A stretch of DNA of 64,000 nt from assembly GCF_004006665.1 (NCBI RefSeq), contig NZ_QOCL01000003.1, positions 1-64,000 of the forward strand, in the 5' to 3' direction. Numbering within the stretch: the first letter of the stretch is position 1; each line of letters starts with the position of its first letter. The notes under the pieces are model-generated. The model ran no database searches and was not told where the DNA came from. It was given only the letters and a program-made list of their open reading frames with translations. Source of the DNA: Halobacteriovorax sp. HLS (GTDB taxonomy: Bacteria; Bdellovibrionota; Bacteriovoracia; Bacteriovoracales; Bacteriovoracaceae). Below are positions 19,601 to 49,745 of the stretch, piece after piece. A program made the translations under genes and the position numbers.

Positions 19601-22177
19601 ATGAAAACAATATTTTATACGACTGACACAAATTTAGAATCCGTTTATTCGTCTTTTGAAGACGACAATGCGGTCCTCTGTTCAGATTTCAATGATCTCG
19701 GACGCTTGGTTAATGAGTCTGACGTATGCACTATTGTAATGGATTTTGACTGTGCTGAGCTAGATTGCCTTGAAACACATAAGTCATTAGTTGATTTAGA
19801 CAAAGTCTTTACGATACTTTTAACCGGCTCAATGGAGCTGCCCGAAATACTGAAGATTCAGAATTCATCTAACGCGTGCGATGCTTATTTAACTAAGCCT
19901 GTAACCAAAGAAATCATTTTAGATGTTATTGGAGACTTTCAACTCTCAGTTGATCAAAGTAATTCGTCCGACACTGTCGCTCCTCAAATGGAGCAGAGTT
20001 TAGTTTTTTCAGCAAGAGATCTTGAAAGTGAACTAGATCAATCAGTGGAAGATGACTTGCTGGCCAGTTCACAGATAGCGGAGACTGAAGAGACTGAAGA
20101 CGAAGATGATCAAGTAGACTTTAACGCTTCTGAATTTCGTATTTCTGATGAGGTTAGAGATGTTGTTGATCAACATAATCAAAGTGATTTAGATTTTGAT
20201 GATGAAGTAAATAAGGACATCCAAAGAAAGTTTGACTCTGTATTTGGGAAGAAGAAGGTTGTAGAGACCAGTAAGTCCGATATAGCAGAGATCATAACTC
20301 CTATTGAGCAGGAAAAAGAAGAAATTAGTTTTGAAAAAAATAATACACAAGAAAATATAGATTTTAATCCTGAAGAGGATAATATTGTTGTCGAAGAAAG
20401 CCCTTCGATTGAGGTAACTATGTCTGATGATAATGAAGAAGTTGGCGGTCTTGAATTTAGCCTTCCTGATGAAGAGGTTGAACTCGCAGGAGAGGAAGCT
20501 GTTGCTAAGATTGAAGAAAATGATTCTGAAGATGTAGGTGAACTTGATTTTTCAGTTAGTGATGACTCTCAAGAGGAGTCGGAACAAGAAGAGGGACTAA
20601 GCTTTGATGTATCAGGTGATGACCTCGATCTTTCTGGTGAAGATCAGGGTAGTGAAGGTGCTTCTGAAGACTCGTCAGATGATGGACTAGAATTTGACGT
20701 TAGTGAAGATTCTCTTAGCCTTAGTGATGAGACTGATACAGCACAGAGTGCAGCCCCTAGTGAAGCTGCTGATGATGAACAAGAGGGAGGACTTGAATTC
20801 GATATGGATTCTGATGACTCTCTTTCACTTAGCGCTGATGGAGACGAAGTTGAATCAGCACCTCTTGAAAGTGCTGTTGATGACGGTTTAGATTTTAATG
20901 ATGACAGTGATGAAGGCCTTAGCCTAAGTGCTGAGGGTGATGAAATAGATAATAGTGTCGCTGATGAAGGTGGTGCTGGAGATATCGATTTCTCGGCCAC
21001 TGAAGATGACGGTGAAGGTGTTGACCATGCATCGATAGAGTCAACAGACTCTTTTCAGCTCGGAGACTCTGACGATTTAGATGCAACGATTAATTCGATT
21101 GTTGCTCCTCCTGCTGAGGAAGATCAAGAGGTCTCGGCAAGTGCTGAAGCAGAAGACTCTACTGGCGAATTTGATATGGCCGCAATTCAAAATGCCGCAG
21201 TTGAAGAAGATGATAGTGAGCAAATGCAAGAGTTTGATTATAAAACTTCATCAGGATTTTCTCCTGATCTATTAGACAGTGTAGGTGACAATACTAATCC
21301 TACAATAATCGCTTCGACAGGTTCTTTGAAAGAGGGGGACCTCTTAAGTGACCTTGATGATTCTGGAACAGTGACAGAAGAAAATGTCGTAGGAGAGTTG
21401 TCTTTTTCTGAAACGATTGAAGATGACTTTTCATCGGGACTTGATGAGTTGATGAGTGCTAACTCAGAAGATAATAATTTAACTCAAACAGTTCAAACCA
21501 GCGAGAATTCTAATACTGAACCAGCTCCTAGAATGAGCTCTAAAGAAGAGTATGAAAACTTTAGAAGCTATGACGAAGATGAAATGCTTCGTCTGCAAGG
21601 TACGATTAGACAGCTGAGAGAAGAGCGAGAAGAGTTGATGAGTGAAATAACGCAACTTAAGGCAGAAAAACAAATTCTCGATCAAGATAACTTAGGTCTT
21701 AAGGCCGAACTAGACGAAGTAAAGATTGAGTTAGGAATTATAAAGAAGAGACATCACGAAGAGTTAAGTGAAAAAGAGTATCAAAATAAGCTCAATGAAG
21801 AAAAACGAGAACTCTATGAACTTAAGGCAAAGAACTTACAAAAAGAATTTGATCGTTTAAATCAAAAAGTTAGATTAGACTTCAATCAAGTTAAGCAAAG
21901 AGAAAAAGAGCTTGAAAGTAAGCTTGAGTTAACCGTAATGGACTCTGAATCTCTTGTGCAAACTCGAGATATGAAAATTCTAGACTTGAAAAGAAAAATC
22001 GATGCTCTAGAGTTTAATATGGAGAACTCTACGATTAGAGAACTTAAGCATAGAGAAGATAAATCTAAGCTGGAAGAAAGGCTTGGTAAGATCATGAAGA
22101 CCTTGAGAGGCTCAATACAACTGATTGAAGACGACTTAGATGAATTAGAAGAAGATAATACAAAAGAACTGGATTAA
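19601..22177 (+). CDS. Acidic repeat protein with N-terminal pseudo-receiver and C-terminal coiled coil
   Basis: An 858-residue cytoplasmic protein. Residues 1-115 resemble a receiver fold (ending in the TKP motif of the beta5 Lys-Pro), but the first acidic pocket is poor. About 120-640 is very acidic and disordered with recurring units of about 25-45 residues around the core GL[ED]F[DSN] followed by SLSLS-type strings. About 640-850 is a long coiled coil. The architecture recalls polarity and gliding scaffolds such as AglZ/FrzS (pseudo-receiver plus coiled coil) rather than a transcription regulator; this is an analogy. The diguanylate cyclase gene follows 4 nt later. Confidence 0.75.
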   Translation: MKTIFYTTDTNLESVYSSFEDDNAVLCSDFNDLGRLVNESDVCTIVMDFDCAELDCLETHKSLVDLDKVFTILLTGSMELPEILKIQNSSNACDAYLTKPVTKEIILDVIGDFQLSVDQSNSSDTVAPQMEQSLVFSARDLESELDQSVEDDLLASSQIAETEETEDEDDQVDFNASEFRISDEVRDVVDQHNQSDLDFDDEVNKDIQRKFDSVFGKKKVVETSKSDIAEIITPIEQEKEEISFEKNNTQENIDFNPEEDNIVVEESPSIEVTMSDDNEEVGGLEFSLPDEEVELAGEEAVAKIEENDSEDVGELDFSVSDDSQEESEQEEGLSFDVSGDDLDLSGEDQGSEGASEDSSDDGLEFDVSEDSLSLSDETDTAQSAAPSEAADDEQEGGLEFDMDSDDSLSLSADGDEVESAPLESAVDDGLDFNDDSDEGLSLSAEGDEIDNSVADEGGAGDIDFSATEDDGEGVDHASIESTDSFQLGDSDDLDATINSIVAPPAEEDQEVSASAEAEDSTGEFDMAAIQNAAVEEDDSEQMQEFDYKTSSGFSPDLLDSVGDNTNPTIIASTGSLKEGDLLSDLDDSGTVTEENVVGELSFSETIEDDFSSGLDELMSANSEDNNLTQTVQTSENSNTEPAPRMSSKEEYENFRSYDEDEMLRLQGTIRQLREEREELMSEITQLKAEKQILDQDNLGLKAELDEVKIELGIIKKRHHEELSEKEYQNKLNEEKRELYELKAKNLQKEFDRLNQKVRLDFNQVKQREKELESKLELTVMDSESLVQTRDMKILDLKRKIDALEFNMENSTIRELKHREDKSKLEERLGKIMKTLRGSIQLIEDDLDELEEDNTKELD

Positions 22178-22181
22178 TAAA

Positions 22182-23198
22182 TTGAATGATGAACTAAACG
22201 GACAACATTATAAGAAGTTGATTGAGTTTATTTTTGAATGTGATCAGCTTGAAGGCCTTAAAAAGGTGTACGAGTCACTAGACCAGTTTTGGATTAGTGA
22301 ATTCTTATCATCTTCAATAAACGTATTCAGCGTTCATAAAGACTCTGCTGAAAAACGTTACTGCCGTCAATTTTGGAGAGCAAAGAGTCAAGTTGAGAGC
22401 TTAACAACTCATGACTTAAATGAGATACGTGGTCTGATTAAAACGTCTCCACAACTCGAACAATCTTGGATCGAGGTTGTTAAATCAAAAGATGAATATC
22501 TCTATGTGTTCTCCTGTGGGGAATCTTATGATCAGTTTTACTATGCTGGCGTAAAAGTTTCTGAAAAAGTTCAGGATAAACTTTTAAATTATCTAGTTAC
22601 TTACTTGAATACAACTTCTCTTAAATTTAATAAATTTAGTGAGGCAGATAAGCTGAAATCTCTTGTCCATGTAGATGATGTAACTGGACTTTATAACCAA
22701 AGAAAATTCTTAAAAGATATAGATAATCAAATTAGTAAGTATGAAGAACAAGGGGAGCTTTTCTCTGTTATCTTCATTGATATAGATCACTTTAAAAGTG
22801 TTAATGATGGGCACGGTCATCTCGTAGGAACACAGCTTCTTTCAGATGTTGCAACTGTTCTAAAACGAGTCGTTAGAGAGACTGACTTATGTTACCGCTA
22901 TGGTGGTGATGAATTTGTCATTGTTGTTCCTTCATGTAATGGCGAAGACGCTAAAGATGTAGGTCTAAGGATCTTAAGAGGTATTACAAGAGAGAAGTTC
23001 TTTGTCTCAGAAGAGAAGGGAATGAATGGCTCTCATACCTTTAAACTTTCCGTTTCGGTAGGTGTCGCTACTTTTCCTAAAGATGCTAAGACGAGAGTTG
23101 AGATCATCTCTATTGCCGATAAAATGATGTATAAAGCTAAGCAATCTGGACGTGGTCAAGTTTGTTTTGCGGGTGAAATGTTCACTGAGGAAGGGTAG
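22182..23198 (+). CDS. Diguanylate cyclase (GGDEF)
   Basis: A 338-residue protein with an N-terminal region of about 160 residues of unknown fold and a C-terminal GGDEF domain that makes cyclic di-GMP from two GTP. The active site reads RYGGDEFVIVV and the metal-binding DIDHFKSVND segment is intact. RETD five residues before the motif is a product-inhibition I-site. The start is TTG 4 nt after the previous stop, with no better ATG in frame. Its stop overlaps the GTG of the next gene. The operon ties c-di-GMP synthesis to the acidic scaffold protein. Confidence 0.93.
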   Translation: MNDELNGQHYKKLIEFIFECDQLEGLKKVYESLDQFWISEFLSSSINVFSVHKDSAEKRYCRQFWRAKSQVESLTTHDLNEIRGLIKTSPQLEQSWIEVVKSKDEYLYVFSCGESYDQFYYAGVKVSEKVQDKLLNYLVTYLNTTSLKFNKFSEADKLKSLVHVDDVTGLYNQRKFLKDIDNQISKYEEQGELFSVIFIDIDHFKSVNDGHGHLVGTQLLSDVATVLKRVVRETDLCYRYGGDEFVIVVPSCNGEDAKDVGLRILRGITREKFFVSEEKGMNGSHTFKLSVSVGVATFPKDAKTRVEIISIADKMMYKAKQSGRGQVCFAGEMFTEEG

Positions 23199-24277
23199 TG
23201 TTACTTCTTTCAATTAGTGATCTGCATCTAGGTAAGGGGCGTTTTTTAAAAAATGGTCAGCTCAATATTCTAGAAGACTTTTTTGAAGATCAAAGATTTG
23301 CTGAGTTTTGTGAGTTTTACTCAACTGAGGAGTTCTACACTAAAGAAGTTCATCTTGTTCTCAATGGTGATATTTTAAATCTAATTCAAATTGATTTTGA
23401 AGGTGTCTTTACTCATATTGTGGACTCAGTTCACGCTATATCAAGTCTATTGTCTATTATTAAAGGTCATCCAATATTCTTTGATGCCATAAAGAACTTT
23501 CTAAATGCACCTAATAAGAAAGTTAGTTATGTTATTGGAAATCATGATGCGGCCATGGACTTTGAAAGTGCTCAAGAATTATTTAATCAAAGAGTCGATT
23601 CAAAAGTTAACTTCTGTCATGAGTTACAAACCTATGGTGTTCATGTTGAACATGGTCATCGTTTTGAGGCCATCAATTCTGTTCCAAAGAAGAAGTATTA
23701 CACATTGGGTCCAAATGGAAAAAAGATTTTAAATCTACCTTGGGGAAGTTTATTTTGTATCTCTGTTTTACCTAGACTTAAAAAGGAGAGGCCTTACTTA
23801 GATAAGGTTCGACCGATGGCCTCTTATATTAAATGGTGTCTAGTGCATGATATTGGATTCTTTTTTAAGATGTCCATTATTGTTATCAAATACTTGATTC
23901 AAACTAATTTTGATACCTACTTGAAAGATAATAGAAATTTTCAAACATCTTTAAAGATTCTAAAACAAATTACAATTTATCCACGCTACGAAAAAAAAGC
24001 TAAGGCCATTTTAAAAAAGGACCTTGGACTTCATACTATAATAATGGGACATACACATTTACAGGAATGGAGAAGATTCCCTGAAGGGAAGTATTACTTT
24101 AACACTGGTACGTGGAATCCGATTCCTTCTATTGATGCCGGTCTTCATCAGGATTCAACTCACTTAACTTATTGTATGCTTGATATTCATAAAGAGACCT
24201 CTAGCTTAAGAGAAGGCTCTTTAAATGTTTGGCAAGGAAAGTGGAGACCATTTAAATCCGAAATCTCTACTTCGTAA
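23198..24277 (+). CDS. Calcineurin-like metallophosphoesterase
   Basis: A 359-residue metallophosphoesterase. All metal motifs are visible: SDLHLG at the N-terminus, LNGDILN, VIGNHD, VEHGHRFEA and MGHTHLQEW. The layout is like UDP-2,3-diacylglucosamine pyrophosphatase (LpxH), but the chain is about 100 residues longer, with a hydrophobic helical insert (about 185-240) that could bind membrane. Substrate therefore uncertain. It begins with GTG overlapping the TAG of the cyclase gene, indicating coupling. It overlaps the convergent permease gene by 11 nt. Confidence 0.82.
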   Translation: MLLLSISDLHLGKGRFLKNGQLNILEDFFEDQRFAEFCEFYSTEEFYTKEVHLVLNGDILNLIQIDFEGVFTHIVDSVHAISSLLSIIKGHPIFFDAIKNFLNAPNKKVSYVIGNHDAAMDFESAQELFNQRVDSKVNFCHELQTYGVHVEHGHRFEAINSVPKKKYYTLGPNGKKILNLPWGSLFCISVLPRLKKERPYLDKVRPMASYIKWCLVHDIGFFFKMSIIVIKYLIQTNFDTYLKDNRNFQTSLKILKQITIYPRYEKKAKAILKKDLGLHTIIMGHTHLQEWRRFPEGKYYFNTGTWNPIPSIDAGLHQDSTHLTYCMLDIHKETSSLREGSLNVWQGKWRPFKSEISTS

Positions 24278-26483
24278 CTGAGTTTCTCTGGGCATTTTGA
24301 ACAGAAATAACAGAACAAGAAGCAGCCGCAATGAGTTTATCATCATCTGTTCCTAAGATATCTTTCCACCATGAGTGTTCAGATGCTCCAAATACAAGTA
24401 GATCGTATTCAGCTGAGTATTGGATAATTGATTCAACTTTATCGTCAGTTTGTAATGTTTGATACTTAGAGCGAGACCTAGTATTTGCGCACAGCTTTTC
24501 AAGATCTTCGTGCTCTTTAGCTATTTCATCATTTGTTACATTCAGTCCTACAATCTTTACTAAGCTAAGTTCAGCTTTATTTGCAACTGCGTAAAGGTCA
24601 GCAGATCCTAAAACAAGTTCGAAGTCACAATTTTCATCAATTACGACTAAGACCTTTCTTATATAACGAACCCCTGCATCTCTAAAAATTGCTAGATTTG
24701 ATTGAAGATGGTTTCTAAGCCATCCTACAGGGTTATGAATAGTGAAGGTTCCTCTTTTTTTACCACCCCATTCTTTGAATAGCCACTTACAGTGAAGTCT
24801 TTGACTTATTTCAAATACACTTCTAGCTAGGTCGTGACTAACAATTGGATCAAATGTGATTGGGAGGTTTTGCTCCACGGACATCGCAATAATTCTTCTA
24901 CGAAGAGATCTTAACTGACCAGGTTCTTCAATAAGATCCTTAAGGTCTGTTTGTTCAGGAACTTCTGTAAAGTGGGCAACTTCTAAGTTTTCACCTTCGG
25001 CCATAACCGCTGCCATCTCTATTAAAGTTTCAGGACTTTTTTCATTCCCAAATATGGCAACAACAGCTCTGGCGTCTTTACTAAATTGCAAGCTATCAAA
25101 GTTGTAGCTGGTCATACTTTCAACTTCTTCGACAACAATATCAGTTCGCTTTCCACGAATCCCTAAAACACCTCTTCTTGTCGTTCTATTTTTTGAGTAA
25201 AAAATAAACAGAAGAACACCTGGAATTGAAATACCTAGTACTGCCGATACAATGATGAAGCCCATTCCAAAGAGAAGTCCAAGTCCACTGATGATACCAA
25301 GTACTTGTAAGACAGGATACATTGGGCTTTTAAACTCCGGTTTATACCACTGTACTCTCGTTTCTCTTAGCACGATAACCGCAATATTCTCGAAAACATA
25401 AATGAGAATCATAAAGCCAGAAGCTAATTTAGCAATCTTCGTTACATCCATATAAAGGATGGTTAGAGCAACAACAAGGCTTGATAGTAGTATACTCCAA
25501 ACAGGAGTTAGGAATTTCTTATGAAGTTTACCAATTGCACTTGGAAGAAGTTTATCCCTACCCATTGCAAACGGAAATCTTGAAGAGGCGAGGATTCCTG
25601 CATTGGCCATGGAGATCATCGTTAAAATACCTACTACAGAGATAAAGATTGCAAAGGATTCTCCTCCAACATTTTGAGCAAATGTGTAGAGAGGTTTGTA
25701 ATTTCCTACGAAGTCTAATTTAGAAACATTTCCCACCATAGAAAAAGTAACAAAACAGTAAATAACAGTTACTAGAAAAAGAGAAATGAGTATTCCTCTT
25801 GGAAGATTCTTTTCAGGATTTTTTATTTCCTCGGCTATTGCGGCCACCTTTGTTACACCTGCAAATGACACAAAAACAAGTGCCGTAGCAGACATAAGCC
25901 CAGTGAATCCATGATCTAGAAATGGAGTCATATAGCTACTGTCTAGTTGTGTTAAACCTGCGCCACCTAGAACAAATAATGAACTTATAGCAATAGCAAC
26001 TATAACCATCAGAATGCTACTAACTTTTCCAACTCCAAAGATATTTAAAATAGTTATTATGACTAAAAATGTCAGAGCGGTAGGCTGTAGCGGTAGGTCG
26101 GCCAATACTGTCAAATACGCACCAAAGCCAACTAAGGCAAAGGCCGCTTTTAGTAATAGTGATAGCCAAAGTCCAAGCCCCGCAACAGTTCCAGCAAGGG
26201 GTCCAAATGTTCTTTCGAGATAAACATAGGTTCCGCCAGAAGTTGGCATGGCCGTAGCCAGTTCTGATTTAGACATTGAAGCAGGGAGAATACATATTGA
26301 CGCGAGCAGGTAAGCTAGCCAGACAGATGGTCCCGTCTGCGTAATAGCAAGACTTGGTAGCACAAAAATACCACTACCTAGCATGGCACTAATACTAATT
26401 GCTACTACTGAACTTAATCCTAGTCGTCTTTCTAGTGCTTTCACAGAACCTCTCATTAACACGTAAGAGGTCAATTCTGACAT
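24267..26483 (-). CDS. APC-family amino acid permease fused to stress-protein-like C-terminus
   Basis: A 738-residue protein. Residues 1-440 form an APC transporter with about 12 membrane helices. The substrate-site signature GSGIFVLPSL is in helix 1, and TSGGTYVYLERTFGP is also typical. Residues about 460-738 are soluble and resemble one or two universal-stress-protein domains (VVAIFGNEKSPETL; LVVIDENCDFELVLGSA; LLVFGASEHSWW near the end). Such fusions are known among bacterial amino acid transporters. The soluble part probably binds nucleotide and regulates uptake. It is monocistronic. Confidence 0.9.
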   Translation of the reverse strand: MSELTSYVLMRGSVKALERRLGLSSVVAISISAMLGSGIFVLPSLAITQTGPSVWLAYLLASICILPASMSKSELATAMPTSGGTYVYLERTFGPLAGTVAGLGLWLSLLLKAAFALVGFGAYLTVLADLPLQPTALTFLVIITILNIFGVGKVSSILMVIVAIAISSLFVLGGAGLTQLDSSYMTPFLDHGFTGLMSATALVFVSFAGVTKVAAIAEEIKNPEKNLPRGILISLFLVTVIYCFVTFSMVGNVSKLDFVGNYKPLYTFAQNVGGESFAIFISVVGILTMISMANAGILASSRFPFAMGRDKLLPSAIGKLHKKFLTPVWSILLSSLVVALTILYMDVTKIAKLASGFMILIYVFENIAVIVLRETRVQWYKPEFKSPMYPVLQVLGIISGLGLLFGMGFIIVSAVLGISIPGVLLFIFYSKNRTTRRGVLGIRGKRTDIVVEEVESMTSYNFDSLQFSKDARAVVAIFGNEKSPETLIEMAAVMAEGENLEVAHFTEVPEQTDLKDLIEEPGQLRSLRRRIIAMSVEQNLPITFDPIVSHDLARSVFEISQRLHCKWLFKEWGGKKRGTFTIHNPVGWLRNHLQSNLAIFRDAGVRYIRKVLVVIDENCDFELVLGSADLYAVANKAELSLVKIVGLNVTNDEIAKEHEDLEKLCANTRSRSKYQTLQTDDKVESIIQYSAEYDLLVFGASEHSWWKDILGTDDDKLIAAASCSVISVQNAQRNSVTK

Positions 26484-26510: not shown

Positions 26511-27365
26511 TTAGTTCCAGACACTCACTTGAACATAGAATTGGCCTTTATTGCTTTCGAAAGTACTGTAAAACTCAAGGATAGACTCTCGTGAACTTAG
26601 TAATTCTGTATGACCAACTCCAAAGACGCTATTTATTTCTTGCACTGGGTCACCGACATCGATAAGCATCTTTTTAGTCTTAGTAACTAAGGTTTGAATG
26701 AATGCTTCAAATATTTCTTCAACACTTTGAATAGTCGTATTATCAAGATACTCAATTATATATTCTTCAAATGTTTCTGCCGGAAATGCAATAGTTATGA
26801 TTCCATTAAACTTTTCAGAGTGAATGATTATACAACCATAATAGTCATAGTGCTGGCTGGTTTCACATTCAAGCTTTTGGGTCGTTGTCTTCGTTATATC
26901 CTTGAAGTTTCCAACATTAATTAGAATTTCTTTAAAGTGGCCAACAACGCTATTGATAAAATCAATATCGATACTTTCTCTAGGAGTTAGCTTCACCTTG
27001 TCTGATGTGCTAAGGGCAAGTTTTAATTTTGTTAATTGAATCGGTTTTTGAAGAAAGAAAATATTTGAATACTCTTTTTCATCTAGTTTTATATTTGAGG
27101 AACTCATGAGTATAATTGGTGTATCTTGATTATAATTACTTCTTCTGACTGTGTTGATGAAATCATCTCCAGTAACTTTAGGCATATGAAAATCAGTGAA
27201 GATATAGTCAAACTTCTGGTTGCGAGACTTAAGAATTCCTTCCATTCCGTCTTTGGCCTTGACTATATTATATTGGACAAGTTTTTGAAGTAGGCGACTA
27301 AATAGTACTGTGAAGTCAGCATCGTCATCTATAACTAAAACGTGCTTTTTCTTAGAGTAGTTCAT
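26511..27365 (-). CDS. Response regulator with CheX-like output domain
   Basis: A 284-residue protein: receiver (about 7-120) with the acidic pocket VIDDDAD, phospho-acceptor Asp58 (FTDFHMP) and Lys in LQKP. The second domain (about 135-284) is CheX-like: it begins FINSVVGHFKEIL and contains GIITIAFP. CheX proteins are CheY-P phosphatases, so this protein could drain phosphate from receivers. The usual catalytic Glu/Asn pair cannot be confirmed by eye. No Shine-Dalgarno is seen; CGATAA lies 7 nt before the ATG. It is divergent from the REC-ankyrin gene. Confidence 0.85.
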   Translation of the reverse strand: MNYSKKKHVLVIDDDADFTVLFSRLLQKLVQYNIVKAKDGMEGILKSRNQKFDYIFTDFHMPKVTGDDFINTVRRSNYNQDTPIILMSSSNIKLDEKEYSNIFFLQKPIQLTKLKLALSTSDKVKLTPRESIDIDFINSVVGHFKEILINVGNFKDITKTTTQKLECETSQHYDYYGCIIIHSEKFNGIITIAFPAETFEEYIIEYLDNTTIQSVEEIFEAFIQTLVTKTKKMLIDVGDPVQEINSVFGVGHTELLSSRESILEFYSTFESNKGQFYVQVSVWN

Positions 27366-27372
27366 AAGTAAC

Positions 27373-27399
27373 TTATCGTGAGTAAAGAAATTATCGACA
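27373..27399 (-). promoter_or_regulatory. Possible sigma-28-like promoter of the REC-CheX gene
   Basis: CACGATAA (27380-27373, minus strand) lies 7 nt before the ATG at 27365. The expected -35 position (27399-27392, TGTCGATA) matches FliA poorly, so only the -10 half is supported. Confidence 0.35.
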
Positions 27400-27441
27400 T
27401 ATAATTATTACTTAAGAAATGATTAAATTGTGTTCATAATC

Positions 27442-27468
27442 TTAATTGTGAAAAAGAAGTTACGATAA
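27442..27468 (+). promoter_or_regulatory. Sigma-28-like promoter abutting the REC-ankyrin start
   Basis: TTAATTGT (27442-27449), 11 nt, TACGATAA (27461-27468), then 6 nt to ATG 27475. The -10 shares CGATAA with several other genes here; the -35 matches the FliA consensus at 5 of 8 positions. No Shine-Dalgarno is present, so the mRNA may be leaderless. Confidence 0.45.
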
Positions 27469-27474
27469 GCAAGA

Positions 27475-28674
27475 ATGGGAAATATACTCGTTGTCGATGA
27501 CGACTTAGATATTCACGCTCTATTTAAAGTAGAGTTTAAAAAATCACCTCATAAGCTATTCTTTGCCAAAAATGCAATGGAAGCTGTGGAGGCGTTGAAG
27601 AGTGAATATATAGGTGTTGTATTTCTGGATATTATTCTTGGTTCAAACGAAACAAGTCAGTCTGTTGTTTCGAAAGTAAAAAATGTACCTGTCCTTTTGA
27701 TGAGCTCTTACATAACAGATGACTATAAAGAAAATATTTTACAAAAAAATACTAGTATTGTTGATTGTTTAAAGAAACCATTTAAAAAAGGTATTATGCT
27801 AGAAAAAGCGACGCAATACTTGGCCTCTCAAGGTGAAGATAATACTGAACAAGAAAATAGCACAACGATTAAAAGTACTACCCAAAATATGACCGATGAA
27901 GCGACTCTTGTTGCAGGAAGTGGGCAGGACGCTGAGGACTCTCAGTTAGTTAAAGGTCATAGTGAAGATGAAGACAATACTGTTACAAAAATTGAAGGAG
28001 TAACAGACTCTATAAAAGAAGAGTCAACTTTAGTTAAAGGTGATGGACAAAACGAGCTAAAAGATGAGCTGACGATAGTTAGTGGTGAAAGTGAAGAAGA
28101 TGACAACTTTCATCAGATTCTTCAGCTCGAGAATACTCAGACCTGTTCTCCTCAAGAATTAAAGTACAAGAATGATATTATTTACTTAACCAAAAAGGGA
28201 CCAAAGTCTAGAACTTTAGATGGGTACACTAGGCTAATGATATCAGTCTTGTTGGAGAAGAAAATCGAAGTTGAACTTGCCTTAGATGAAGGTGAGGACT
28301 TAGAAGATAAGTGTAAGGGTGGTTATACGTCTCTACATTTAGCTGTTTTAAGAGAGAACTTAGAAGTCGTAGAGTTTCTAATTGATAAAGGGGCCAAGGT
28401 AAATGCTCGTGATAATGATGGAAGAGAGCCTCTTTTTTTTGCGATCCAAAAGAATAATGTAAAAATGGTTGAATTACTTATTGAAAAAGGAGCTCCCATA
28501 AATAGAAGAGTTAAAGGGAGAACATACCTTATTTTAGCAGCAATAAAAAAGAATTTAGAAATGTTTAAAATATTTGAAAGTAAAGGCATCTCAAAAGAGA
28601 TTCGAGACGATAATGGCTTCAATGTACGACATTATTTGAAAAAATATAAGATAGAGAACTTCTTAGAAAAATAG
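27475..28674 (+). CDS. Receiver domain joined to ankyrin repeats
   Basis: A 399-residue protein. The receiver (1-115) has DDD at 8-10, Asp52 (FLDIILG) and Lys in KKPF. A disordered acidic linker (about 118-215) repeats a TLV-x-G-x-GQ/E unit about three times. After a short globular segment come at least three ankyrin repeats (about 265-395), with TSLHLAVLRENLEVVEFLIDKG and REPLFFAIQKNNVKMVELLI typical of the fold. Phosphorylation would thus control a protein-binding surface rather than DNA binding. The single-receiver gene follows after 8 nt in the same operon. Confidence 0.9.
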   Translation: MGNILVVDDDLDIHALFKVEFKKSPHKLFFAKNAMEAVEALKSEYIGVVFLDIILGSNETSQSVVSKVKNVPVLLMSSYITDDYKENILQKNTSIVDCLKKPFKKGIMLEKATQYLASQGEDNTEQENSTTIKSTTQNMTDEATLVAGSGQDAEDSQLVKGHSEDEDNTVTKIEGVTDSIKEESTLVKGDGQNELKDELTIVSGESEEDDNFHQILQLENTQTCSPQELKYKNDIIYLTKKGPKSRTLDGYTRLMISVLLEKKIEVELALDEGEDLEDKCKGGYTSLHLAVLRENLEVVEFLIDKGAKVNARDNDGREPLFFAIQKNNVKMVELLIEKGAPINRRVKGRTYLILAAIKKNLEMFKIFESKGISKEIRDDNGFNVRHYLKKYKIENFLEK

Positions 28675-28682
28675 AGGATGAT

Positions 28683-29075
28683 ATGGATTTAGATTTTTTA
28701 GTAATAGATGATTCAATGGAAATGGTTAAACTACTTAATAGCTTTATTGTGTCTGGAAATTTAGGTCATGGTCATTCTTTTGAAAATGAACTTAAAGCAA
28801 TGGAATTCGTCGGAGAAAATTGTCCAGACATTCTAATTATAGATGTTAATTTAAACTATATTAATGGTTTTAAGCTTGGAGAACTCATTCGATCTATGCT
28901 TAAACTAGAGATTCCAATTATCTATATATCTTCCAATGACCTCTATCTTAAAGATTTTTATGATGCTGATCAGAGAAATACATACTTTATGAATAAGCCT
29001 TTTGATAAAGAGACATTTAAAAATGTCATTGAAAAGATGGCAGGAGACCCGTCTAAGTTAAATGATGTTGAGTAG
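28683..29075 (+). CDS. Single-domain response regulator
   Basis: A 130-residue stand-alone receiver of CheY/Spo0F type, with DD at 9-10, Asp54 (IIDVNLN) and Lys in MNKPF. The usual Gly/Pro after the acceptor is replaced by NLNYING. GAGGATG gives a good ribosome binding site. It is the second gene of the REC-ankyrin operon and overlaps the convergent receiver gene by 18 nt. With no output domain, it likely passes phosphate on or acts by protein binding. Confidence 0.88.
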   Translation: MDLDFLVIDDSMEMVKLLNSFIVSGNLGHGHSFENELKAMEFVGENCPDILIIDVNLNYINGFKLGELIRSMLKLEIPIIYISSNDLYLKDFYDADQRNTYFMNKPFDKETFKNVIEKMAGDPSKLNDVE

Positions 29076-29750
29076 TATTTTTCTAACTGTCTTTATGAGA
29101 ACTTCGTCTTCATGATTGAAGGTTAGTTTTATATTATAACCATCGAGTTCAACATTCTTTTGAATCTCGCTAATTGTTAAAGATAAATCTTTGTCTGGTG
29201 AAATCTTTTTAGCAAGCTTTCCATATGCCTTTACCAAATTCCCTTTCGCAATGAATTGGCTAGAGTGAATTAATATAAATTGCTCATGTAGTGACATGAC
29301 TTTAAAAGGGAGCCTGACAAAAGAGTCTCTACTAGATGCAGCGACAGCGTAGAAAGGAAGAGCTGAACTCTCTTTGAACATATCACCAAAGGCCGAATTG
29401 ACTTTAGACTTTAAAAGTACATCATCTAAGGGTTTAGTTATATAATCATTCGCACCGTTTGTTAGGGCATGTTGAATATCTTCTTCAGAAAATCTTCTAG
29501 AAATAATAATAACTTTTACTTCGTCTCCATATTTATTTCTAATGGCCTTTAAAATATTAAACCCAGCTCCATTTACATCACCAAGATTGAGATCTACTAG
29601 ACAAATATCGGGCCTATTCTTTTTAAAACATTCAAAGAAGTCATTGAAATTGGTGGTCGTCTCAACGAGATATTCTTCTTTGACTAAGATCTTCTTTACA
29701 TATGTGTTGATATCTGGATCGTCATCTAGAACGAGGAGTCTTCTGCTCAT
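29058..29750 (-). CDS. Receiver with unknown C-terminal domain (paralogue 2)
   Basis: A 230-residue protein. The receiver (1-120) has DDD at 9-11, Asp53 (LVDLNLGDVNGAGF) and Lys in TKPLDD. The C-terminal part (about 130-230) is beta-rich, starts near VRLPFKVMSLHEQFILIHS, and resembles the corresponding part of the upstream paralogue. It is not one of the common DNA-binding outputs; a PilZ-like barrel is one possibility but unproven. AAGAAGG supports the start. It is last in the operon REC-HD / HPt / REC-X / REC-X. Confidence 0.82.
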   Translation of the reverse strand: MSRRLLVLDDDPDINTYVKKILVKEEYLVETTTNFNDFFECFKKNRPDICLVDLNLGDVNGAGFNILKAIRNKYGDEVKVIIISRRFSEEDIQHALTNGANDYITKPLDDVLLKSKVNSAFGDMFKESSALPFYAVAASSRDSFVRLPFKVMSLHEQFILIHSSQFIAKGNLVKAYGKLAKKISPDKDLSLTISEIQKNVELDGYNIKLTFNHEDEVLIKTVRKILLNII

Positions 29751-29752
29751 AT

Positions 29753-30433
29753 TTAAACCTTCTTATTCTGGACTTTTCTAATATTTTGTAAGGTCTTCTC
29801 TGGTAGGCCAAGAAGTTGTATCACTGTGTCGTACAGGCCTGGCATAATATCTCTAGATTGTTGATAAATTGTAAAATGCCCGGGCATTATGGATAAAGAT
29901 TTTAGAAAAGTACTTTCTATTTCTACTTTACTTTTTTGCGTAAATTTAACTTTAGATCTAAATGTAAATGAAACCTCATTTAATTTGATAATCTCTCCCG
30001 GAATATCTAATTCAATATCTTCTTGTTCATTACTGAAATCAATAGGAGTAAAGGAGTGATCTTTAACACTTGCTTTTGCTGTATTGATCAAAGTCTGATT
30101 ATTTAGTGGCTTCAAAAGGTAACCATTAACACCATATTCTTTAGAAAGTGTGATTGATTGCTTATTTGTTTGAGATGAAATCATATAGACATTAATCTTT
30201 CCAATAAGATTAACTTGTTTCATTTTTTCAAGTAAGCTAAAACCATAATCATCTTCAAGGTTAATATCTAACAATATTAAATGAGGGCAATGATCTAGCA
30301 CCATAGCAAAAGCATCCTCAGTATTATTTGATAGTAAAATCTCATAACCTAAGTTACTCAGTATCTTCTTAATGTATGTTTGCATATCCTGATCATCATC
30401 TACGACCAAGATACTCTTTGATATATTAAGCAA
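29753..30433 (-). CDS. Receiver with unknown C-terminal domain (paralogue 1)
   Basis: A 226-residue protein with a receiver (about 6-122; VVDDDQD, Asp56 in LLDINLEDDYGF, Lys in LLKPLN) and a beta-rich C-terminal domain (about 135-226) with LDIPGEIIKLNEVSFTF. The pattern of strands and the acceptor-site sequence resemble the next gene, so the pair arose by duplication. The start is TTG, 3 nt after the HPt stop, with AGGA too close for normal use, so translation is probably coupled to the HPt gene. Confidence 0.8.
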   Translation of the reverse strand: MLNISKSILVVDDDQDMQTYIKKILSNLGYEILLSNNTEDAFAMVLDHCPHLILLDINLEDDYGFSLLEKMKQVNLIGKINVYMISSQTNKQSITLSKEYGVNGYLLKPLNNQTLINTAKASVKDHSFTPIDFSNEQEDIELDIPGEIIKLNEVSFTFRSKVKFTQKSKVEIESTFLKSLSIMPGHFTIYQQSRDIMPGLYDTVIQLLGLPEKTLQNIRKVQNKKV

Positions 30434-30436
30434 ATC

Positions 30437-30745
30437 CTAATCCATATCTACATAATTAATCTTTACGTTGTTTACGTAGTCTTCAAATTTTTCTATTAAT
30501 TCATTTATTCCTGTTTCAGTATTGGCCATGGCCAACTTTTCAATTTCTTTTGCAATTTGACCAAGATCATGAAAACCATATCCACCTGAACTACCGCTTA
30601 CTTTGTGTCCTATCTTTTCGATCTCAGAAAGATTCTTTTCATTAGAGAATTGTTTTAGAAGTTCAATGTCTTTTTTTCTATTCTCTAAGAAGCCCGGGAC
30701 AATATCTTCCAGGTCTTGATCAATTTCAACAGTAAACTCTGCCAT
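30437..30745 (-). CDS. HPt phosphotransfer protein
   Basis: A 102-residue single-domain histidine phosphotransfer protein, the shuttle of multistep phosphorelays. His47 lies in IGHKVSGSSGGYGFHDLG, matching the HxxKGxxxxxG family pattern with Val/Ser changes next to it. The rest is a four-helix bundle. GAGGAG precedes the ATG. It lies inside an operon of receiver genes and is the only HPt in the window, so it is the natural link between the hybrid kinase at 32185 and the receivers around it. Confidence 0.9.
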   Translation of the reverse strand: MAEFTVEIDQDLEDIVPGFLENRKKDIELLKQFSNEKNLSEIEKIGHKVSGSSGGYGFHDLGQIAKEIEKLAMANTETGINELIEKFEDYVNNVKINYVDMD

Positions 30746-30754
30746 ATTTTCTCC

Positions 30755-32062
30755 TCAATTTAACTTGTGCTTGAATACATATTCTATCGTATGCCATATC
30801 TTATCGAAATTTTTGCTCGAAAACTTGTATTTAGAAAACGTTAAGATATCTGAGATCTTGTGTAAGTCATAATCATGTCTATAGATTTCACAAGCTACGA
30901 AGTGAGAGGCCAGGAAAATACATTGGTTTTGATTAAGTTGACTTAAGTCTTTCTTATGATTGCTAATACTATAGTCATCTATACCAGAGTGATGAAATTC
31001 GATAAGGTTTTGAATTTCGTTTGTTAGATCATCCATCTTTGAGAGGGTGTCGCTTAAACTTGTGTGCGAAAGAATGGCATCTCTGTCTTTGGCCTCTAGT
31101 TGCTCAATCTTTTTTGGTTCCAAATCATGGATTAGTGCCAGGCGATTTGTTGGTATAAGTACATCATGAATTAGAGCAGCAGTCGATATCTTCTTAAGAA
31201 CACTCTTATCCAAGCTCATTTGATCGCAGACATATGAACATATACAAACCATTAAATAGCTATGATCATAAGTAAAGTCCTTCGAATTAATGGCCTTTTG
31301 AAGTAGATCAAATAGAGTTGTCTTAGATTCAACGTCTTGAATGATCTTTTCTGCAGTACTTTGAGCTGTTTTAAGAGTCTGCTTTGTGAGGCCTAACATA
31401 GAGACTTGAGAATTAAGAAAGTGATGATTTTGCTTTAAGCTATCATAGGAATATTCTTCGGTTTCAAATATTGTGGAATAATCGTACTTATCAAAGAATT
31501 TATTTTCATCTTTTGTTTGTATATAGAGAAAACGTTGTCCTTTTTCAATGTAAGTATTAAGCCTGTCTAAATCGTACTCTTCTTCAGTGTTGAATACTTT
31601 GATGAACTTATCATTATTTATTTTGATGTAGATTGGGAATTTACTCTTTTTCCATCTTGCGAAATGATAAATTGCAATTGGAAAGTATGTGCTCTGATCT
31701 GTCTTTGTTACAGAGTTAATATAGTTTCGATACTTTTTAAGATTGGTTGGTTTTTGTAGGTAGAATTGATTGTCTTCTACTTTATAAAAAGCTAATTCCC
31801 TTAAAGTTCTACTGGTAAAGAACATGAACTTTTGGTTTTCTTTGCTATTTTCTTTCCAGTTGTAGAATACTTCTTCTCCCGTTCCTGTGGGAGGCATGTC
31901 AAAATCACAAATAATTAAATCAAAGTCTATTTTTTCTATAAGTTCTATGGCCTCTTTAGGGGAATAGGCCACATGAAATCCGTTTTTTACACATAACGGC
32001 TCTACAACTACAGAGTAGAGATCTATAATACTACTATCATCGTCAACCATTAATATTTGCAT
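30755..32062 (-). CDS. Receiver with HD-type domain (degenerate HD-GYP)
   Basis: A 435-residue protein: receiver (1-120; VDDD, Asp53 in ICDFDMPPTG, Lys in LQKP), a beta-rich middle segment (about 128-195; FPIYIKINNDKFIKVFN), a helical linker and an HD domain (about 255-435). The HD pair is in ALIHDV, and later His residues occur in LSHTSL and EFHHSG. The HHExxDGxGYP motif of c-di-GMP phosphodiesterases is replaced by HHSGIDDYS, so c-di-GMP hydrolysis is doubtful. It is first in the operon with HPt and two receivers, divergent from the hybrid kinase. Confidence 0.83.
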   Translation of the reverse strand: MQILMVDDDSSIIDLYSVVVEPLCVKNGFHVAYSPKEAIELIEKIDFDLIICDFDMPPTGTGEEVFYNWKENSKENQKFMFFTSRTLRELAFYKVEDNQFYLQKPTNLKKYRNYINSVTKTDQSTYFPIAIYHFARWKKSKFPIYIKINNDKFIKVFNTEEEYDLDRLNTYIEKGQRFLYIQTKDENKFFDKYDYSTIFETEEYSYDSLKQNHHFLNSQVSMLGLTKQTLKTAQSTAEKIIQDVESKTTLFDLLQKAINSKDFTYDHSYLMVCICSYVCDQMSLDKSVLKKISTAALIHDVLIPTNRLALIHDLEPKKIEQLEAKDRDAILSHTSLSDTLSKMDDLTNEIQNLIEFHHSGIDDYSISNHKKDLSQLNQNQCIFLASHFVACEIYRHDYDLHKISDILTFSKYKFSSKNFDKIWHTIEYVFKHKLN

Positions 32063-32164
32063 AATTCACCTGAATCTATTTTGCCATCTCTTATTCGTTG
32101 TTGTTTAAATTTTTCCTTAAGATTTAATTTATGGAAAACTTTAATTAGTTTTCATGGATAGAAT

Positions 32165-32172
32165 GACGATAA
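32165..32172 (+). promoter_or_regulatory. Possible sigma-28 -10 box before the hybrid kinase
   Basis: GACGATAA contains the same CGATAA core; the ATG at 32185 follows 12 nt later with AGGAT very close to it. The -35 position (TAGTTTTC) matches only 4 of 8, so this is weak. Confidence 0.25.
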
Positions 32173-32184
32173 AATAATTAGGAT

Positions 32185-33657
32185 ATGAAACTAATAATAG
32201 TAGATAAAAATACATTACTAAGAAAGACGATTAAAGAAGAGCTTTCCTATGTCGGTTATGATGTCGTTGATAAGAATGACTTCGATGAAGTGTTTTCTAT
32301 TATCAAGTCTGATGTTATCGATCTTGTTATTGTTGAAGCATCTAATGAAGGCTTTAAGCTTTCTCAAAGAATTCGCTCTTATGAAAAAGATAATAATTTA
32401 GATAATATTCTGCCGATTGTTTTTACCGCAGAATTAGATGAAATTGAACTTAGACTTGAGAGCTTTAGATGTGGTGGAAATGAGTTCATTGTTACTGATA
32501 ATAAGGGTGGTATCTCATATAAGATCAATTCTATTTTAAAGCCTGATCTCATATGGAACGGCTCAAGTATTGCCATAGTAGAAGATGATAATACTACTGC
32601 TAAGTTTCTGACTTATTTGCTTAAAAGCAAGGGCGCCTCTGTGAATTGGTTCAACTCCGCCGTTGATTGTTATGAATTTTTAAAGAAAGAAAGTGTTGAT
32701 TTAATCGTTACAGATTTTGTAATGCCTTTAATGACAGGTACTGAGCTCGTTAAGAAGATTCGAATTGAGCTAGGGTTAAAAGATCTGCCTATTGTTTTTA
32801 CCTCTTCGACAAAGGAGAAGTCTGAAATTCTAGGTTTCTATAAGTGTGGAGGTAATGATTTCATTTCAAAGCCATTCTTAAAAGAAGAAGTTTTTACGAA
32901 GATAAAAATTCTCCTAGATAATACCAATAAAACAAAAATGATGAATCAATATATTCGAGAATTAAGTAATCTAAATGATGTTAAAGATCAATTTCTCGCC
33001 GTATGTTCTCACGATCTTAGAGCACCTCTTAATAGCATTATAGGCTACTCAGATGTTCTTATCGAAGATAATGATCTCGATTCTGATGTTACTGATATGA
33101 TTAGAGTTATGAATAAGTCTGCCCATAGTTTACTTGGAATGGTTGATGACTTACTGACTTTAAGTGAAGTTCAACTTAAGAATGAGTTAGATTTAAAAGA
33201 GATAGATTTGGCGAAAATAGTTGAAGAGAGTTTTGAACAACTTAAGGGTGCAGTTAAGAAGAAGATTTCATTTAATATTGAAGACAAATCTGAGCATGCC
33301 ATTATTTATGGTAATGATTCGATGTTAAGAAGAATATTTTCAAACTTACTTTCTAATGCCTACAAGTTTACAGAAGATGGAGGTGAGATTTCTTCCCGCA
33401 TTTGGTGCGAAGAGGGAATTGTATATTGCACTATTCAAGACTCTGGTATTGGGATACCTCAGAAGTATCTAAATAATGTATTTGTTAGAATGTCGGGAGC
33501 AGGTCGTTATGGTCTTGAAGGGCAAAAGAGCACAGGCATTGGACTAAGTATTGTTAAAGAGATTGTTGATAAGCATAAGGCAACGATTGAAATTGATAGT
33601 GAAGAAGGAAAGGGTACTGTTTTTACTCTTGGTTTTGAATTAAAGAAAGGTGCTTAA
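32185..33657 (+). CDS. Soluble hybrid histidine kinase: degenerate REC, REC, HisKA, HATPase
   Basis: A 490-residue cytoplasmic kinase without membrane segments. REC1 (about 1-118) is degenerate: VDKN replaces the acidic pair and the acceptor place is Glu51 (IVEASNEG). REC2 (about 128-245) is intact, with EDD, Asp177 (VTDFVMP) and Lys in SKPF. HisKA follows with His276 (CSHDLRAPLNS). The HATPase has the N box (NLLSNAYKF), DSGIGIP and GIGLSIV. Receivers placed before the kinase imply control by an upstream phosphodonor. A fixed Glu can mimic the phosphorylated state. The stop overlaps the next receiver gene (TAATGA). Confidence 0.93.
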   Translation: MKLIIVDKNTLLRKTIKEELSYVGYDVVDKNDFDEVFSIIKSDVIDLVIVEASNEGFKLSQRIRSYEKDNNLDNILPIVFTAELDEIELRLESFRCGGNEFIVTDNKGGISYKINSILKPDLIWNGSSIAIVEDDNTTAKFLTYLLKSKGASVNWFNSAVDCYEFLKKESVDLIVTDFVMPLMTGTELVKKIRIELGLKDLPIVFTSSTKEKSEILGFYKCGGNDFISKPFLKEEVFTKIKILLDNTNKTKMMNQYIRELSNLNDVKDQFLAVCSHDLRAPLNSIIGYSDVLIEDNDLDSDVTDMIRVMNKSAHSLLGMVDDLLTLSEVQLKNELDLKEIDLAKIVEESFEQLKGAVKKKISFNIEDKSEHAIIYGNDSMLRRIFSNLLSNAYKFTEDGGEISSRIWCEEGIVYCTIQDSGIGIPQKYLNNVFVRMSGAGRYGLEGQKSTGIGLSIVKEIVDKHKATIEIDSEEGKGTVFTLGFELKKGA

Positions 33658-34016
33658 TGAAAATAGTTGTATTAGATGATGCTGTTGATAATCTTAACCT
33701 TTTAAAGCTATATGTGAAAAAATCAGAAGATGAGTTTGTCTTTTTTTCTAATTGTGATGAAGCTATTGCGTACTTTAAAGATTCAAGTGCAGATATTTTC
33801 TTTTTAGATATTCAAATGCCTGAAATGGACGGTTTTGAAGTATTAGAAGTCATTAGAGAACTTCCTCAGCGTGATGATCTATTTGTATGTGCCTTGTCTG
33901 CATTTTCGCTGGATATGGAAGCTGATAAAATTAAGAACTCAAGTTTCAATGATTACATCCAAAAGCCAATTCTTAGGCAAAATTTCTTAGACTATATTGA
34001 GAGTAAGAGAAAGTAG
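33657..34016 (+). CDS. Single-domain response regulator coupled to the kinase
   Basis: A 119-residue receiver with DD at 7-8, Asp51 (FLDIQMPEMDGF) and Lys in IQKP. Start and kinase stop overlap by one base, so it is made together with the kinase and is its most likely direct target. No output domain. Confidence 0.92.
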   Translation: MKIVVLDDAVDNLNLLKLYVKKSEDEFVFFSNCDEAIAYFKDSSADIFFLDIQMPEMDGFEVLEVIRELPQRDDLFVCALSAFSLDMEADKIKNSSFNDYIQKPILRQNFLDYIESKRK

Positions 34017-34022
34017 TTAGAA

Positions 34023-34394
34023 TCAGCTAAAGAATATGATTAAATCTTCTTTTAAAGTAGGGAAGTTTACAGGCTTTGTTATATATTTCTGTGCTCCCAG
34101 TTCTTTGGCCAAGACCTGTCTTTCTTCATCAGAGTAAGCAGAGGCCATGAATACAGGAATACCGACGTGTTTTTCTTTTACATTCTTAAGCAGTTCAAAA
34201 CCATCCATGACTGGCATATTAATATCACTTATAATGAGATCTACACAACCTTCATCATCCAGTATCTCTAAGGCCTCTTGACCATTTTCGGCGTAAATCA
34301 GTTTATAGGTTGATGCAGCTACTTCTTTTTTGAACATTCTTGAAAAGAGAAATTGAATAGAGCTTTCGTCGTCGACAACAAGTATAGTTTTCAT
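34023..34394 (-). CDS. Single-domain response regulator (CheY-like)
   Basis: A 123-residue receiver close to the CheY consensus: VVDDESS at the N-terminus, Asp57 (ISDINMPVMDGFELL), Ser/Ala switch and Lys in ITKPV. It is convergent with the previous receiver gene. It has no Shine-Dalgarno; a well-matched sigma-28-like promoter ends 6 nt before the ATG. That would place this CheY-like protein under flagellar-type control and make its mRNA leaderless. Confidence 0.93.
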   Translation of the reverse strand: MKTILVVDDESSIQFLFSRMFKKEVAASTYKLIYAENGQEALEILDDEGCVDLIISDINMPVMDGFELLKNVKEKHVGIPVFMASAYSDEERQVLAKELGAQKYITKPVNFPTLKEDLIIFFS

Positions 34395-34400
34395 ATCTTA

Positions 34401-34427
34401 TTATCGGTACTTAAGGGAGAGTCTTTA
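34401..34427 (-). promoter_or_regulatory. Sigma-28-like promoter abutting a CheY-like gene
   Basis: On the minus strand TAAAGACT (34427-34420), exactly 11 nt, ACCGATAA (34408-34401), then 6 nt to ATG 34394. The -35 matches FliA at 6 of 8 and the -10 at 7 of 8. The hairpin at 34427-34451 touches the -35. Confidence 0.6.
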
Positions 34428-34457: not shown

Positions 34458-34982
34458 TTATTTTTTCTTAGCTGGTGCTTTCTTTGCTTGTGTTTTTTTC
34501 ATCACAGGCTTTTTCTTTGGAGCAACTTTCTTAGTTGCTTTTTTAGAAGTGGCCTTCTTAACTGGAGCTTTTTTAGCAGTTTTCTTCTTTGTGTTCTTCG
34601 TTGTTTTCTTAGTCGTCTTTTTTGTAGTTTTCTTCGTAGTCTTTTTTGAAGTTTTTGAAGACTTCTTTACAAATTTCTCTACTTCTGACTGAAATTTATT
34701 AAGCTCTTTCATTTGATCGTCAACAAACTTTTTGGCCTTTTTCATTTCTAGTTGGACTGTTTTATCAACCATTTTCTCTATAGATTTAACTTCTTTCTCT
34801 AACTTCTTTACGAACTTAGGAACATCTTTATCAACAAGTTTCTTGAAATCTTTTTCAGCACCTTTCACAAAGCTCTTTACTTGCTTTTGAACATTTTTAA
34901 GTTCGTCATTTTTAACGATATCTTCAATGTCTTTTCCTAGCTCTTTTAATTGTTTAAGAAATGTTTGTACTTTAAAATCCAT
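34458..34982 (-). CDS. Histone H1-like Lys-rich protein with helical N-terminus
   Basis: A 174-residue basic protein. Residues 1-110 are long amphipathic helices with regular Lys, Val and Phe (KKLEKEVKSIEKMVDK), somewhat phasin-like. Residues 110-174 are a low-complexity tail of KKTTKK and KKAPAKK units like eukaryotic H1 tails and bacterial Hc1/AlgP-type proteins. It probably binds DNA or another polyanion and self-associates through the helical part. AGGAG precedes the ATG. The repeated codons make the DNA itself repetitive, so tail length may vary between strains. Confidence 0.82.
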   Translation of the reverse strand: MDFKVQTFLKQLKELGKDIEDIVKNDELKNVQKQVKSFVKGAEKDFKKLVDKDVPKFVKKLEKEVKSIEKMVDKTVQLEMKKAKKFVDDQMKELNKFQSEVEKFVKKSSKTSKKTTKKTTKKTTKKTTKNTKKKTAKKAPVKKATSKKATKKVAPKKKPVMKKTQAKKAPAKKK

Positions 34983-48308: not shown

Positions 48309-48758
48309 CTACCTTAACTTCGATTTAACACATTTGAGAAGATTTCTATCTTCCCATGAAAATTTAATTTCACATTGTTGTAGAATTTTATTAGTGTGAG
48401 TACTACAGCTCCCACTATCTTTAAAGCGGTTATCTTTTCTATTTTCCATACAATAGAACTTTAGGTTTTGATCAACCTCAATCATTTGTTCTTTTGGATC
48501 AACCTTGATAATCGCTTTCTTCTTTGTTCTTTTTTGATGACTATATTTTTTAGGCTTAATAGTTTTTATCTTGGATTTCTTTTGCTTGTTCCAGTTTTCC
48601 CATCTTAGTTGCTTATAGCGATTTATTGCATTATCTCTTTCAATTTCCTCAAAGCTTTTATTAGTTTGATCAGAGTAGTGGCGTTGTTTCTTCTCAACAT
48701 TATGAGAACATGAGACCCCGATTAATAAGATTGATAGTAGTATAATTCTAAAAATCAT
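48309..48758 (-). CDS. Small lipoprotein with basic linker
   Basis: A 149-residue predicted lipoprotein with lipobox GVSC (Cys17). A Lys/Trp-rich basic linker (about 45-90, with repeated KIKTIKPKKYSHQKRTKKK character) leads to a C-terminal part with four Cys (YCMENR, GSCSTH, QQCEIK, LKCVKS), likely two disulfides. Family unknown. It overlaps the preceding endonuclease gene by 11 nt, so the two form an operon. The basic linker could hold nucleic acid near the nuclease (inference). Confidence 0.72.
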   Translation of the reverse strand: MIFRIILLSILLIGVSCSHNVEKKQRHYSDQTNKSFEEIERDNAINRYKQLRWENWNKQKKSKIKTIKPKKYSHQKRTKKKAIIKVDPKEQMIEVDQNLKFYCMENRKDNRFKDSGSCSTHTNKILQQCEIKFSWEDRNLLKCVKSKLR

Positions 48759-49590: not shown

Positions 49591-49745
49591 TTTTTCCATC
49601 CTTGGAATTATTTTAAATATCATAACAAATCAATCTGTTTTGGCCAAGAAATTTACATAACTATTTTCTTACTTTACCTATATTGCGCATCCATTACATC
49701 CTGTTATCATATAAGGAACCGCAAATTTAAAGCAAAAGGAATTGT

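Follow-up and report, generated by a model that had tools for sequence, protein, structure and literature searches.

Gene content and layout of the island

The window analysed here is a 64,000-nucleotide stretch of Halobacteriovorax sp. HLS (contig NZ_QOCL01000003.1, positions 1 to 64,000). It contains at 26511-34394 (7,884 bp) an island of signalling genes that probably encodes a multi-step His-Asp phosphorelay, with a conserved core of one histidine-phosphotransfer protein (HPt) and two paralogous receiver (REC)-PilZ-like regulators, driven in this lineage by a kinase with receivers as its input. Ten genes make up the island, nine for receiver-containing proteins (ten receivers) and one for the HPt. 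Pfam Response_reg was matched in nine island proteins, twice in the kinase (32185-33657), which was also the sole island protein with HisKA and HATPase_c matches. The Hpt family was matched solely by 30437-30745 (E = 1.9e-7), ankyrin repeats by 27475-28674 and HD by 30755-32062, and no DNA-binding domain was matched by Pfam among the island proteins. The preliminary description of this DNA, made from the letters alone, had listed ten receivers in nine proteins plus one HPt in 7.9 kb, a single gene with a kinase catalytic domain, ankyrin and HD outputs and no recognisable DNA-binding output; the Pfam searches bear out each of these points, with the qualification that the tenth receiver is degenerate.

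Receiver matches number 89 in the 3.84 Mb genome and ten of them fall inside the island; the next densest 7.9-kb place holds four, none of 5,000 random placements held more than five, and the receiver clustering in the island exceeds chance. In nine of the receivers, no ortholog examined has lost the acidic pair, the Asp or the Lys. The tenth, the first receiver of the kinase (REC1), is without a phosphorylation site in 12 of 12 orthologs and scored 25.9 bits against a Pfam cut-off of 30.2. Potential partners for the island receivers are encoded in the rest of the genome (49 HisKA and 11 HPt matches genome-wide). Neither an Rfam RNA nor a tRNA was found in the window.

The core output genes lie on the reverse strand. 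The hub gene hpt (30437-30745) encodes a stand-alone HPt whose phospho-acceptor, His47, was assigned from a 20-sequence alignment in which it is invariant. Next to it are pilB (29753-30433; TTG start in the list of open reading frames) and pilA (29058-29750), names that denote here paralogs B and A of the REC-PilZ-like regulators, pilA not being the pilin gene. Both were assigned from Pfam receiver matches, pilA together with a structure model and its retention beside hpt across the phylum, pilB together with the PilZ fold of its lone C-terminal domain and its homology to pilA. With the upstream HD gene they form the operon HD-hpt-pilB-pilA, which diverges from a forward-strand operon consisting of the kinase gene (REC(degenerate)-REC-HisKA-HATPase) and rrS2 (33657-34016), a single-domain receiver whose start is the last base of the kinase gene. 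The divergent intergenic region (32063-32184) carries ACGATAA at 32166, and this layout is kept in 12 of 12 islands.

The remaining five receiver genes look like accessory branches of putative circuit membership. Two encode single-domain receivers with intact active sites, rrS1 (28683-29075, forward) and rrS3 (34023-34394, reverse), both assigned from Pfam, synteny and the active-site table. The forward-strand ank gene (27475-28674) encodes a receiver, a low-complexity linker and ankyrin repeats and has orthologs at loci L031 and L081-L083. The reverse-strand gene at 26511-27365 (Response_reg E = 6.5e-15; 65% ortholog in L031) ends in a C-terminal domain of unclassified type, read as CheX in the preliminary description; no CheX match was found for this half in Pfam, NCBIfam or a PDB profile search among the listed matches. 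The reverse-strand HD gene (30755-32062; receiver, central region, HD; assigned also from synteny) was matched after the receiver by PF01966 at 24.7 bits (cut-off 22). The GYP motif of HD-GYP phosphodiesterases is absent from the seven aligned orthologs, HHSGIDDYS standing in place of the HHE..DG.GYP of HD-GYP proteins. Such REC-HD proteins form a large lineage-specific family with six matches in this genome and up to 12 in others; six tandem copies lie at L045 in genome G055.

A CGATA-type element precedes each of the 26511 gene, ank, the kinase gene and rrS3 by a few bases, and relatives likewise carry such elements ahead of the kinase or HD gene. The pattern [CTA]CGATA[AG] was found upstream of 12 of 40 island first genes versus 2 of 77 other genes (Fisher 3.8e-5, the orthologous promoters not being independent). 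Directly upstream of rrS3, at 34401-34427 on the reverse strand, is a sigma-28-like site, TAAAGACT-N11-ACCGATAA, with three mismatches of 16; about 0.25% of random stretches of 120 bp score equally well or better. The attack-phase regulon of Bdellovibrio bacteriovorus is dominated by sigma-28 (FliA) promoters of the form TTAAG-N16-CCGATA (PMC3627812). Several island promoters share with that regulon normally spaced boxes resembling TAAAG and CCGATA; the island matches are imperfect, and the sites are predicted from sequence. The -35 boxes are poor at several island promoters, sigma-28-like matches are not seen at every one, flagellin promoters, used as a control, showed a clear box for only some of the flagellin genes, and the genome-wide count of the promoter pattern is only about 1.5-fold over a reversed-pattern control in the source genome. 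The likeness of some island promoters, for example that of rrS3, to sigma-28 sites of the TAAAG-N15-CCGATA type is thus suggestive.

Conservation of the island and linkage of its core

Conservation was searched for in 129 genomes of the order (one family). The same island occupies the same chromosomal place in three genera, flanked by a permease gene (24267-26483) and by nadE-trmFO. Conservation of the gene order, put forward in the preliminary description as a check on the island, with a lack of it as a refuting result, was found at two levels: all ten genes are kept in order in G044, of the same genus, and the kinase gene, hpt, pilA, pilB and rrS2 are present in 12 of 12 genomes that have the kinase. 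Five genomes (G048, G049, G050, G002 and G003) retain HD, hpt, pilB, pilA, kinase, rrS2 and rrS3, and five others (G043, G045, G046, G051 and G052) are without HD and some other genes and retain hpt, pilB, pilA, kinase and rrS2. Kinase orthologs were found in exactly 12 of the 129 genomes, always inside the island beside hpt-pilB-pilA. In G047 (L100) hpt, pilA and the kinase gene are jointly missing, and a weak hpt-like open reading frame remains alone between the flanking genes.

The other genes are less constant. The 26511 gene was found only in the source genome and G044, ank in all five genomes of the genus and rrS1 in two of the three island genera; HD is missing in 5 of 12 islands and rrS3 is absent in three genomes of the genus. 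In other genera of the order the hpt-pilB-pilA trio is located elsewhere in the genome, apart from nadE. Because of this pattern of conservation across the order, the trio is taken as the core, which the kinase and rrS2 appear to have joined in one group of genera, the other receivers being accessory.

The linkage extends beyond the order. The HPt profile matched 230 of 369 genomes of the phylum and the A-domain profile 110 of 369, many of them weakly. At 43 of the 61 strongest A-domain loci this HPt is encoded on the same contig less than 7 kb away, in most cases at a distance of 1.3-1.5 kb, compared with about 4% of loci expected by chance for 7 kb on either side (from 11 Hpt matches in the 3.84 Mb genome). 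In four genomes, G328 (L129), G353 (L236), G037 (L237) and G115 (L239), the A/B pair is adjoined by a hybrid kinase ending in a receiver and an HPt domain; the fused HPt of L237 is below the Pfam cut-off, but the family model gives it 55 bits. G328 (L129) also encodes a 490-residue protein in which a B-like unit is fused to an A-like unit. As read from the sequences, these histidine kinase (HK)-REC-HPt and B-A fusions support an HK-REC-HPt-(A,B) wiring and a partnership of A with B. The arrangement at L125, in a different family, where a close relative of the island kinase (401 bits) adjoins hpt and a pilB-like REC regulator, agrees with such a wiring. A scan of named organisms with pilA gave mostly generic receivers, the real relatives being L141 and L142 only.

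At seven loci in other genera (L090-L092, L097, L099, L128 and L140), hpt is adjoined by a regulator that resembles over its full length the product of 59897-60571 in the window. This neighbour was considered as an equivalent of the A/B output and rejected, the window gene encoding an OmpR-type DNA-binding regulator and being preceded by a kinase gene of its own at 58299. Where an OmpR-type regulator adjoins hpt, the relay may have a transcription output.

Several further features were noted near the island. In relatives of genus g16 and in G002 an extra multi-receiver protein is encoded between rrS2 and rrS3 (L032, 5954-7126; L034, 12328-13503; L036, 13067-14158), that of L034 having two receivers behind a weakly HPt-like domain. 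The gene at 34458-34982, for a protein with a lysine/alanine-rich histone-like tail, adjoins nadE in all island genomes examined. An 858-residue protein (19601-22177) with a receiver-like N-terminus, a long acidic low-complexity middle and a coiled-coil end (an FrzS-like layout by eye) is conserved next to the island in this genus and in g3 and has no Pfam or NCBIfam match. Elsewhere in the window, 48748-49623 and 62254-63291 encode two endonuclease-I-like proteins (motifs CEHTWPQSRF and AEHVWPRSKF, by eye only).

The output domain of pilA and pilB

The preliminary description had pilA and pilB sharing a duplicated unknown domain. The duplication holds, the two C-terminal domains being mutually homologous; the domain itself can now be called PilZ-like from its modelled fold and its relatives. 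Neither domain matched a Pfam family, nor PilZ even at E = 1, and PDB profile searches with both domains found no sequence relative. Distant relatives of the A and B domains match Pfam PilZ at E = 0.0023-0.016 (16-18.7 bits; cut-off 22.5).

The B domain was modelled alone (model m2037f1e75a83) with a mean predicted local distance difference test score (pLDDT) of 77. Nearly all of the best VIA-align matches to this model were PilZ structures (3kyf, Z = 8.3 over 85 residues with a root-mean-square deviation of 2.5; 2gjg, Z = 8.2), a structural Z near 8 lying at the edge of the values given by unrelated folds. Foldseek gave a probability of 0.96 to 2gjg with an E-value of 0.3, which is not significant, and with the full-length pilA model (mdd01b4c253e1) it returned receiver structures only, among the best matches listed. 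PilZ-like is the best call for this output domain because the list of structure matches to the model is consistent and because the relatives match Pfam PilZ in sequence.

A second REC-PilZ-like A/B pair is present in the same genome (L221; contig C3, about 603922-605243). Its receivers are without the acidic pocket and would not be phosphorylatable in the usual way, and one of its members is among the relatives that reach Pfam PilZ.

Proposed relay, alternatives and known systems

A HisKA kinase donates its phosphate to a receiver and not directly to an HPt. The kinase His276 is kept in 12 of 12 orthologs, and the second receiver of the kinase (REC2) and rrS2 retain Asp and Lys in all orthologs. 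Among NCBIfam families, rrS2 is matched best by that for the C-terminal receiver of hybrid kinase BarA (3.5e-20); the next family is worse by over six orders of magnitude. Because of this BarA-type match, the overlap with the kinase gene and the presence of rrS2 in 12 of 12 islands, rrS2 is most likely the intermediate receiver between kinase and HPt.

In the proposed relay the kinase would autophosphorylate at His276 and pass the phosphoryl group to Asp51 of rrS2, a receiver of a kind usually found as part of hybrid kinases. The next acceptor would be His47 of the HPt, followed by Asp56 of pilB and Asp53 of pilA, the PilZ-like domains of which are predicted to have proteins, not DNA, as their targets. 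The receivers of the HD, ankyrin and 26511 proteins, rrS1 and rrS3 may be lineage-specific branches, or sinks for phosphate, that the same HPt feeds, or they may be members of other circuits. The domain content, the intact phosphorylation sites, the conserved linkage, the HK-REC-HPt and B-A fusions and the shared phyletic pattern are observed; the single phosphotransfers and their direction, the part played by rrS2 and the nature of the output are inferred.

Several observations weigh against this relay. Kinase REC2 could replace rrS2 as the intermediate, and the accessory receivers differ between close relatives. Most genera of the order show no orthologous kinase beside the trio, and therefore the HPt there must receive phosphate from another kinase. 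The HPt is retained without a nearby A/B pair in G055, G075, G061 and G121, and in a Bdellovibrio genome (G132, which we take to be B. bacteriovorus HD100) it adjoins a different hybrid kinase of 1,132 residues; therefore the HPt can serve other partners. A rival reading makes the HPt a hub charged by many distant hybrid kinases; the island kinase would be one input among several and its two N-terminal receivers the entry of other circuits. The far wider distribution of the HPt family than of the kinase (12 of 129 in the order), the different hybrid kinases found beside the trio or the HPt in other genomes and the many other kinases encoded in this genome speak for such a hub, but in the three island genera kinase and trio are never separated and in G047 they are jointly missing. 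We regard it as a real possibility, although the less probable account.

It is rather doubtful that the ten receivers are all joined in one relay branching through the single HPt. The complete gene set is kept in order in G044, every receiver but kinase REC1 is phosphorylatable by its active-site residues and the CGATA element is enriched upstream of the island first genes. Against this, many islands with the core lack the 26511 gene, ank, HD, rrS1 and rrS3, REC-HD paralogs occur elsewhere in the genome and the HisKA and HPt proteins encoded there could serve the accessory receivers. The single circuit suggested in the preliminary description is thus supported for kinase, HPt and the A/B pair, by linkage and fusions, but for the full set of receivers the support does not go beyond proximity.

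A role of pilA and pilB as cyclic di-GMP (c-di-GMP) effectors, with the receivers doing no more than modulate binding, as in REC/PilZ proteins such as PixA of Myxococcus, is improbable. The modelled PilZ fold and a GGDEF gene close by (22182-23198) would suit such a function, and PixA combines REC with PilZ and binds c-di-GMP (PMC8316039); however, the c-di-GMP motifs RxxxR and [D/N]xSxxG are absent from the A and B alignments, and the Pfam PilZ matches of the relatives cover the profile only from around position 20 onward. That signalling genes gathered passively at a permissive site flanked by conserved housekeeping genes, without sharing a circuit, agrees with the turnover of accessory genes while the flanking permease gene, nadE and trmFO stay constant, but is very unlikely since it leaves unexplained the constant trio away from nadE, the fusions and the joint absence.

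Predatory Bdellovibrio-like bacteria switch from a swimming attack stage to growth in prey and back, and their signal integration is poorly known. The locus points to a relay, present in many predator genomes, whose core, at four or five proteins, is small enough to be tested and whose output class is a REC-PilZ-like pair without a c-di-GMP motif. Tentatively, a module spread through the Bdellovibrionota might be envisaged in which one HPt drives a dedicated PilZ-like pair acting as an A/B complex, active in attack phase via sigma-28 promoters, with exchangeable kinases steering motility or prey-entry machinery without touching DNA. With the natural HK-HPt and B-A fusions, the predicted wiring can be tested directly in vitro.

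No description of the island or of an HPt-linked PilZ-like pair was found in a literature search that most subscription papers lay outside. The system was presented at the outset as a candidate for an undescribed one: the phosphorelay is already known as a kind, but a relay with an HPt and a PilZ-like pair as its core is apparently undescribed. PixA of Myxococcus xanthus (PMC8316039) likewise joins a receiver to a PilZ-type domain; in PixA the PilZ domain comes first, the c-di-GMP motif is kept and there is no neighbouring partner gene, whereas in the island proteins REC comes first, the motif is absent, two paralogs are present and both are linked to an HPt. With the Spo0F-Spo0B-Spo0A, CckA-ChpT-CtrA/CpdR, EvgS and BarA relays (PMC9981736 and general knowledge) the proposed relay would share a kinase, an intermediate receiver, a His phosphotransfer step, terminal receivers and possible branching. 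It differs from them in that its conserved outputs are a PilZ-like pair and not a transcription factor, the putative intermediate receiver is encoded by a separate gene overlapping that of the kinase, the receivers of the kinase are N-terminal and the extra receivers vary by lineage.

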